Origin: Oscillospiraceae bacterium
Lineage (GTDB): Bacteria; Bacillota; Clostridia; Oscillospirales; Ruminococcaceae
Direction: 5' to 3'
NCBI GenBank assembly: GCA_017436125.1
Contig: JAFSDS010000008.1
Span: forward strand, 1 to 42,404
Length of the DNA stretch: 42,404 nt
Positions 39,574 to 40,450 of this stretch are shown here, one piece after another. Under the pieces are notes generated by a model. That model ran no database searches. It was given only the letters and a program-made list of their open reading frames with translations, and was not told the DNA's origin. How positions within the stretch are numbered: position 1 is the stretch's first letter; each line of letters begins with the position of its first letter. The position numbers and the translations under genes are program-made.

Positions 39574-39680
39574 ACGCCCCTTGCTAAAGGGGAGAGGGCA
39601 GTAAAGCGGCTAAAGGGATTTAATAAAAATGAATCCCTCCACCGCCTTCGGCGGTCCCCCTCCCTTTGACAAGGGAGGCT
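39574..39680. repeat. Palindromic repeat element A (gene-less)
   Basis: Two facing arms with no gene between. The left arm begins with hairpin CCCCTT/AAGGGG (39577-39582, 39587-39592) and ends AGCGGCTAAAGGGATT. The right arm is its diverged reverse complement: AATCCCTCC, hairpin ACCGCC/GGCGGT (39641-39646, 39650-39655) and hairpin CCTCCCTT/AAGGGAGG (39659-39666, 39671-39678). Edges are ATAAAAACGCC on the left and GGCTTATAAA on the right, like element B. This is a MITE- or REP-like unit between HU and rqcP. Confidence 0.75.
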
Positions 39681-39703
39681 TATAAATAGAAGAGGTTATT
39701 CTT

Positions 39704-39950: not shown

Positions 39951-40426
39951 CGCCTTCCCCTTTGGGGGAAGGGGGACCGCGAAGCGGTGGATGAGGGAAT
40001 ATGAAATATCTTGAGACTAATAAAAATCTTAATGAATCCGCAAGGATTCTTCGTAAAAATATGACACCGGAAGAAAAGCATCTTTGGTATGATTTTTTGA
40101 AAAGTTATCCCGTTCAGTTCAACAGACAGAAAGTTATAGGCAATTATATCGTTGATTTTTATTGCAAAACTGCAAAGGTTGTTATAGAAATCGATGGCTC
40201 GCAGCATTTTGAAAAAGAAACTGTGGAATATGATGGAAAAAGAACGGAATATTTGAACGGTCAGGGAATCGAAGTTGTCAGGTTTCTAAATAAGGATATA
40301 AGAAACAATTTCGAAAATACGTGCGCTTATATAAATACTATTATTGAAAAGCGGATGGGATAAGCCCTCATCCGTCTTTTTGTCTGCAAAACGCAGACAA
40401 AAATCCACCTTCCCCCAAGGGAAGGC
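39951..40426. mobile_element. Element B: DUF559 gene enclosed by inverted palindromic arms
   Basis: The left arm (39951-39998) and right arm (40365-40426) are inverted relative to each other. The left has hairpin CCTTCCCC/GGGGAAGG (39953-39960, 39965-39972), hairpin ACCGC/GCGGT (39976-39980, 39984-39988) and GGATGAGGG. The right reads CCCTCATCC, then an 11-bp palindrome TTTTTGTCTGC/GCAGACAAAAA (40377-40403), and hairpin CCTTCCC/GGGAAGG (40408-40425). Edges ATAAAAAACGCC and GGCTATAAA match element A. A nuclease-like gene fills the centre. Mobility is inferred from structure; no transposase is seen. Confidence 0.6.
40001..40363 (+). CDS. DUF559 endonuclease-like protein (Vsr-related fold)
   Basis: A 120-residue DUF559 protein, a group related to very-short-patch-repair and restriction endonucleases. 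The helical start (NESARILRKNMTPEEKHLWYD) leads to the nuclease core: RQKVIGNYIVDFYC then VVIEIDGSQHF. D52, E63 and D65 fit a PD-(D/E)xK-like active site. No fused domain is present. The site GATGAGGG that lies 3 nt before ATG 40001 belongs to the repeat arm itself, and the stop is directly followed by the opposite arm. Gene and arms therefore look like one unit. The substrate and purpose are unknown. Confidence 0.85.
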   Translation: MKYLETNKNLNESARILRKNMTPEEKHLWYDFLKSYPVQFNRQKVIGNYIVDFYCKTAKVVIEIDGSQHFEKETVEYDGKRTEYLNGQGIEVVRFLNKDIRNNFENTCAYINTIIEKRMG

Positions 40427-40450
40427 TATAAAAATATTCCAATTACGGCT

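Follow-up and report, generated by a model that had tools for sequence, protein, structure and literature searches.

Vsr genes serve DNA repair and EDxHD enzymes are found within introns or inteins, and we know of no gene of either kind between inverted arms of the type described here. To the same nuclease superfamily, PD-(D/E)XK, belongs the DUF559 protein YcjD, for which Vsr was reported as HMM neighbour (PMC1189080). The SOS response of Caulobacter cells devoid of the cytosine methylase ScmA was reported to depend on VsrA, also a DUF559 protein, which was proposed as a mismatch-repair nuclease with E73, D102, D115, H119 and D124 as its active site (PMC12907096). Nuclease genes flanked by inverted palindromes are represented by the RAYTs, for which PMC2817692 describes flanking inverted REPs, coevolution and a correlation with REP abundance. 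The BoxC/PIT/TM_ECO 'intrastrand triplex' repeats, each consisting of a pyrimidine (Y) strand, a purine (R) strand and a third purine strand in mirror order, number 23 BoxC copies in E. coli K-12 MG1655, and the E. coli motif was published as forming a stable triplex; according to the same paper, a mobility gene was not found close to any of these repeats in E. coli (PMC4666352).

Here, we analyzed a 42,404-nt stretch of DNA from an Oscillospiraceae bacterium (contig JAFSDS010000008.1; hereafter, the window), in which an earlier note had placed a DUF559 gene between two inverted arms. The whole unit spans 39952..40426 on the forward strand, with an outermost G-C pair at 39952/40426. Its gene (YcjD family, Vsr-like PD-(D/E)xK; 40001..40363, forward strand) encodes 120 amino acids and matched PF04480 at E 9.8e-32. 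The left arm (39952..40000, forward strand) comprises hairpin 1 (39953-39972), hairpin 2 (39976-39988) and a foot, GGATGAGGG (39989-39997), while the inverted right arm (40364..40427, reverse strand) comprises a foot (40364-40373), hairpin 2 (40377-40403) and hairpin 1 (40407-40426). The two arms are inverted copies of each other, with 89% complementarity over 18 nt and 86% over a further 14 nt. In line with the proposed arrangement, the left/right inverted-repeat (IR) score was 34, compared to a maximum of 26 and a 99th percentile of 23 in 940 mononucleotide shuffles of comparable flanks. Two hairpins per arm were obtained when the arms were folded as single-stranded DNA (z -4.24 left, -7.01 right), in agreement with the short hairpins claimed for each. 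The left arm had also been credited with the Shine-Dalgarno sequence, and GATGAGGG is indeed present at 39990-39997, 3 nt upstream of the ATG at 40001, as a weak Shine-Dalgarno overlapped by the foot. The right arm, said to begin a few bases after the stop, begins directly past it, at 40364.

A covariance model of the arms (R1), built from 24 arms that all come from the window clade and include one with a wrong unpaired first base, matched 39952-39997 on the forward strand and 40365-40429 on the reverse strand (E 2e-9 and 2.1e-8), both window arms being among the 24 sequences. Rfam returned nothing at gathering score for the window. A gene-less arm pair of the same general design (39574..39682, no strand assigned) lies approximately 300 bp from the unit, in the gap between HU and rqcP, where the model matched 39574-39620 on the forward strand (weak, E 0.016) and 39632-39679 on the reverse strand (E 1.4e-7).

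With regard to the enzyme, the window protein was recognized as DUF559 by Pfam and by the NCBIfam DUF559 model, with a sub-cut-off Pfam match to REase_MTES_1575. Residues E25, D52, E63, D65, H69, D78, R81 and R94 were invariant in 48 DUF559 sequences, 47 of which had been gathered with a pattern including E-x-D-G-x-[QI]-H, so that the invariance of E63, D65 and H69 was selected for. A profile that included the window protein (A1) retrieved 3hrl (E 2e-41) and 3r3p, a 'Mobile intron protein' (E 2e-4), from the PDB. We take 3r3p to be the EDxHD homing enzyme I-Bth0305I. The earlier note had proposed a PD-(D/E)xK-like core of D52, E63 and D65; its superfamily assignment stands, while the predicted catalytic set, judged by spacing to VsrA, is likelier the Vsr-like E25, D52, D65, H69 and D78, which parallels the VsrA residues (PMC1189080 and PMC12907096).

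Arms also surround other DUF559 genes, a check that the earlier note had suggested. In the genome of the window, all three DUF559 matches (3/3) lie between such arms, and this genome is also rich in arms without a DUF559 gene; the query of an own-genome search for the CCTTCCCC palindrome was too narrow. Among relatives, 69 DUF559 loci were collected, fragments and most weak matches being excluded, and in 65 of them each flank was 150 nt or longer. Inverted arms were detected at IR ≥30 in 57 and at IR ≥26 in 58 of these 65 loci, which are not independent because orthologous insertions in sister species are included. At L053 (genome G041), the DUF559 gene had longer, different arms with a CCCTCTTTAAAAAAGAGGG core and a foot that breaks the mirror rule described below. 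Low-scoring DUF559 matches from a 299-genome sample of the phylum (26 loci, L066-L091, nine of them in long frames and excluded) showed IR ≥26 in none of the 17 tested, and the arm link therefore belongs to the compact YcjD-like subfamily.

A cross-phylum set, drawn from a broad alignment, consisted of the best 80 of at least 552 confirmed DUF559 loci among at least 588 pattern matches. The record titles of these 80 carried, by our count, ten phylum-level labels: Omnitrophota, Pseudomonadota groups, Chlamydiae, Chloroflexi, Desulfobacterota groups, Portnoy- and Moranbacteria, Ignavibacteriae, FCPU426, Melainabacteria/Gastranaerophilales and Stahlbacteria. Within these best 80 of at least 552 loci, IR ≥40 was reached at 56 loci versus 0 of 437 control positions, which had the same geometry and were taken from the same loci with a shift of 1.1-1.9 kb (55/79 once L152, whose score was due to Ns, was dropped), and IR ≥30 at 64 loci versus eight controls. 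Seven of the ten labels reached an IR of 40 in this best-80 set, Chlamydiae attaining 38, Ignavibacteriae 34 and Stahlbacteria 30. In Legionella anisa (L162), the DUF559 gene lies in a long inverted repeat with a score of 252 and without the hairpin/foot motif. Of 15 loci from the plasmid/phage collection, eight scored above their own shuffle level, L133 equalled it and six (from Azospirillum, E. coli, Neisseria, Photobacterium, one Sinorhizobium and Methylobacterium) had no inverted pair above it, several of these six keeping single repeats of this kind in their flanks. Two phage-labelled faecal scaffolds, with unverified records, contain DUF559.

These arms are more than palindromes: after a pyrimidine strand and the purine strand that pairs with it comes a gene-proximal purine segment, the foot, which tends to repeat the purine strand in mirror order, a trait shared with BoxC/PIT repeats. 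In the window, the left-arm foot agreed with the purine strand at 7/8 positions in mirror order and 6/8 in direct order, and the right-arm foot at 6/7 and 5/7, T being allowed for A. When the best direct match of the same purine strand was used as the control, again with T allowed for A in both, mirror order prevailed over direct order by 82 to 8 with 36 ties in 126 non-symmetric arms of the relatives, and by 70 to 9 with 38 ties in 117 non-symmetric arms of other phyla (best 80 of at least 552 loci). This is a property of the set and not significant arm by arm: on average, 23% of the shuffled stretches taken downstream in relatives, and 16% in other phyla, scored as high as the foot observed or higher. 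The full Y-R-mirror motif (stem of 8-9; foot with zero or one mismatch, within 36 nt) was present at most 250 nt from the gene at 61/65 loci of the relatives versus 4/108 control windows, and at 72/77 loci of other phyla (best 80 of at least 552) versus 5/575. Its foot lay gene-ward on 96 sides and away on 23 in the relatives, and on 113 and 55 sides, respectively, in the other phyla (best 80 of at least 552).

Hairpin 2 is conserved in structure more than in sequence: at two of its pairs, all four standard types of pair occur among 24 hand-picked arms, and both partners of the pair have changed in 13 and 15 sequences, respectively. It also marks a difference from BoxC/PIT repeats, since in arms of the window clade this extra hairpin lies in the loop that precedes the third strand, and the spacing from hairpin 1 to the foot is 16 and 34 nt in the window arms, whereas the published search for triplexes used loops of 1-6 nt (PMC4666352). 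Among the other-phylum arms listed, hairpin-to-foot loops of 2-4 nt were the commonest.

Arm number followed the presence of the enzyme. At least ten R1 arms were detected in 21/24 genomes with a DUF559 match versus 3/37 without (Fisher 2.7e-10) and, counted by genus, in 8/11 versus 3/36 (7e-5); high counts are minima because approximately 96 candidates were scored per genome. All 21 genomes had more than two arms per DUF559 match, with up to 12 matches per genome, and the only same-genus genome without DUF559 (G011) had zero arms. The DUF559 genomes with fewer than ten arms were G020 (four), G037 (zero, with a weak partial match) and G045 (zero, with another arm sequence). Three genomes (G036, G038 and G051) contained 25-32 arms and no detected DUF559 match, for which orphan arms, a lost enzyme or another enzyme are alternatives. 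Protein identity and arm-stem similarity were correlated in the relatives (Mantel rho 0.29; p 0.002, the lowest value attainable with 499 permutations; 53/66 loci with both arms parsed, orthologous-site pairs dropped) and in same-genome pairs (rho 0.53, n 74), and weakly so in other phyla (rho 0.12, p 0.01; 55/79 loci, from the best 80 of at least 552). Left and right stems had a similarity of 0.88 within one unit and 0.66 between units. This covariation, weaker across phyla, runs against the unrelated phylogenies of arms and gene that the earlier note had named as a refutation.

The note had further suggested that gene and arms move together and that sister species should be searched for empty sites. 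In G014, two copies of the unit (L278 and L279) align over 469 columns with 96.2% identity; past the arm ends AAGCC...GGCTT, their flanks have nothing in common except a few AT-rich bases at the left edge. At the L278 site, G003 has a 31-nt gap instead of 485 nt, with flanks 97% identical, and G001 has a 32-nt gap. Six gaps were compared across 15 genomes of the genus, each being scored where both flanks aligned, with states assigned by eye and with DUF559 fragments and broken frames included in the counts (e.g., G014 at HU-rqcP and rpoD-dnaG, G005 at the L278 gap and G006 at the L287 gap). The gap between rqcP and an S-layer-like gene (11 scored) held DUF559 in three genomes, a RAYT-type gene in four, arms only in three and a short gap in one. 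The HU-rqcP gap (11 scored), site of the gene-less pair of the window, held DUF559 in one (the broken-frame unit of G014), a RAYT-type gene in one (G004), arms only in two, a single hairpin in two and no element in five. At cysE-cysS (13 scored), there were four DUF559, three RAYT-type, three arms-only and three empty (38 nt) states; at rpoD-dnaG (12 scored), five DUF559, two arms-only and five short gaps of 58-98 nt, two of which keep a hairpin like hairpin 1. The L278 gap (12 scored) showed three DUF559, two arms-only and seven short gaps of 14-54 nt, and the L287 gap (13 scored) five DUF559, four RAYT-type, one arms-only, one partial-unit and two short states. Mobility of the DUF559-arm unit is thus well supported by sequence comparison: copies end at the arm ends, gene-bearing and gene-less states alternate among sister species, and empty sites exist.

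Decay products were also observed. Five codons resembling the start of DUF559 remain between arms at L095 (G004), and a DUF559 3' fragment remains at L317 (G008); both are internal-deletion derivatives. In the HU-rqcP gap, L098 and L101 show a single outer hairpin like hairpin 1 where G014 has a DUF559 unit, possibly as a scar of excision or deletion. The coexistence of a full unit and short internal-deletion derivatives recalls MITE/IS pairs, from which the DUF559 unit differs in having neither a DDE-type transposase nor a visible target-site duplication. No such duplication, the classical trait of insertion sequences, was visible by eye in the filled/empty pairs, in which approximately 4-13 nt of the target differed.

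Genome comparison accordingly bears out the association of gene and arms, its specificity, unit copies at unrelated sites, empty sites, decay products and covariation. The probable explanation, in our judgement, is a small mobile element consisting of a Vsr-like DUF559 gene and BoxC/PIT-type inverted arms on which the enzyme acts; its role on the arms, its chemistry, the nick position and a triplex in the cell we infer. DUF559 would recognize the folded arm, likeliest when single-stranded at replication or extruded from supercoiled DNA, and would nick near the outer foot of the arm. The released or copied unit, or a gene-less arm pair, would then be joined into short intergenic spacers, and internal deletions together with recombination between hairpins could yield arm pairs, single arms and single-hairpin scars.

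The main rival is a homing variant, in which a Vsr/EDxHD-type DUF559 cuts the empty target or a resident arm and break repair copies the unit in, the arms serving as target or recombination substrate. It would fit the best PDB match outside DUF559 (3r3p), the lack of a visible target-site duplication and the finding that different arm types occupy the same gap in different sister species. However, the two G014 copies share no flanking homology beyond the few AT-rich bases, and at cysE-cysS and the L278 locus an arm is missing from the shortest gaps, so that homology-driven homing would need another step; we consider this variant unlikely.

The analogy to RAYT and REP drawn in the earlier note proved apt, since RAYT-type genes fill the same gap as DUF559 units in sister species at 4/6 gaps: rqcP-S-layer (L096, L100, L101, L102), HU-rqcP (L095), cysE-cysS (L240, L241, L248) and the L287 gap (L315, L316, L319, L320). 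The NCBIfam model REP_Tyr_transpos matched L096, L095, L240, L241 and L315 at E 9e-11 to 6e-22, under its curated cut-off of 80 bits, and Pfam Y1_Tnp was above cut-off in two of L096, L100 and L240, with no match in L096; L101, L102, L248, L316, L319 and L320 were named RAYT-type by resemblance of their translations. As in RAYT/REPIN systems, the DUF559 unit has an intergenic nuclease gene between two inverted palindromic repeats and many gene-less copies, the presence of the enzyme tracks repeat number, and enzyme and repeat covary (PMC2817692 and PMC3116915). It differs in that DUF559 is Vsr-like whereas RAYT is a Y1 HUH tyrosine transposase, and in that the window arms carry a mirror-order purine foot and no GTAG, which was absent from both strands of 39952-40000 and 40364-40427. 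By analogy, the DUF559 unit would work like a RAYT unit without being one.

Another enzyme, such as the RAYT-type transposases of the same 4/6 gaps, could also be taken to mobilize the arms, with DUF559 as cargo or accessory. GTAG-tagged arms belonging to the RAYT-type gene itself were present at all five such loci checked in the two rqcP gaps, which speaks against such a role, whereas none of the seven checked at cysE-cysS and the L287 gap has GTAG-tagged arms (7/7 without a GTAGGGAACGG arm). Remnants of DUF559-type arms adjoin some RAYT-type genes at these latter two gaps, and at L240 (G002) a RAYT-type gene replaces most of a DUF559 unit, the right end of which remains; RAYTs might, therefore, act on these arms, and an interplay of the two systems is possible. 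However, genomes with DUF559 are those with many arms, DUF559 and arms covary in sequence and the pairing recurs in many phyla; we consider DUF559 as a mere passenger improbable. The best reading is a RAYT/REPIN-like class of element built on an unrelated Vsr-type nuclease, which follows the logic of RAYT/REPIN with another enzyme superfamily and another end structure. No paper tying DUF559 to repeats appeared among the open-access papers listed.

Very improbable is a domesticated Vsr-like mismatch nuclease with the arms as mere regulatory or terminator surroundings. The SOS requirement for Caulobacter VsrA, which contains DUF559, in the absence of ScmA methylase (PMC12907096) would agree with such a repair gene, but patchy presence, empty sites, genomes with as many as 12 matches, the placement of arms on either side of the gene and the many gene-less arms would not, nor would the lack of promoter or terminator activity of PIT elements that PMC4666352 relates from earlier work. 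That the arms are ordinary terminator-like hairpins with a gene between them by chance, as GC-rich hairpins in short intergenic gaps might suggest, is hardly credible, chance and terminator-only readings being ruled out by the enrichment over controls, by feet lying gene-ward (96 versus 23 and 113 versus 55) and by unit copies that stop at the arm ends.

Returning to the small mobile element with an arm-acting DUF559, a link to the E. coli repeats can be drawn. We take envM to be fabI, and H. influenzae, which was among the genomes of the earlier PIT study, presumably has DUF559 genes. The 1992 envM sequence is one of the two references cited by PMC4666352 for the first description of BoxC, and BoxC copy 9 of Table 1 in that paper was found letter for letter at L217, between ycjD, a DUF559 gene, and fabI. 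In another ycjD allele (L123), the last codons and the stop fall inside a BoxC-like repeat. Around E. coli ycjD, such repeats are confined to the 3' side and no inverted pair exceeds the shuffle level, so that this gene may represent a decayed unit. The sapF-fabI gap of E. coli (L217, L218 and L219) is occupied either by ycjD with BoxC or by efflux genes, and PMC12817139 gives eefRABCD and ycjD as alternatives. At least 80% of the ycjD version of this gap is held by 3364/5426 genomes, and many E. coli strains lack ycjD. No clean empty site was found for E. coli ycjD, the two ycjD-free strains inspected holding efflux genes there.

A strict BoxC-like pattern was present in 26 of 40 DUF559-bearing genomes (from the best 80 of at least 552 loci), versus 0/40 for the same pattern backwards, with up to 102 matches per genome, on both strands and some of them overlapping. 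In G371 (the genome of L151, Chloroflexi isolate CFX11), matches on both strands overlap around one hairpin, which would therefore have a third strand on both sides. Window-type arms and BoxC/PIT repeats both have a pyrimidine-purine hairpin and a third purine strand in mirror order (set-wise, not singly significant), and both are multicopy, intergenic and widespread, with inverted pairs in five E. coli cases; they differ in that the published repeats were described without an associated gene (PMC4666352). DUF559 units are a likely source of BoxC repeats.

We favour, with some reserve, the view that stand-alone YcjD-type DUF559 proteins are the dedicated mobility enzymes of BoxC/PIT repeats, forming minimal mobile DNA with a Vsr-fold nuclease and a triplex-capable end, which would parallel RAYT/REPIN without being related to it and from which a repeat family already known in the 1990s would originate. 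This provides a candidate enzyme for a class of repeats that is very widespread and of open origin. If true, this would represent a new mobile-element chemistry, the Vsr-like nicking of a folded end, and would assign a role to the large DUF559 family, and the question of mobility becomes testable in E. coli K-12.
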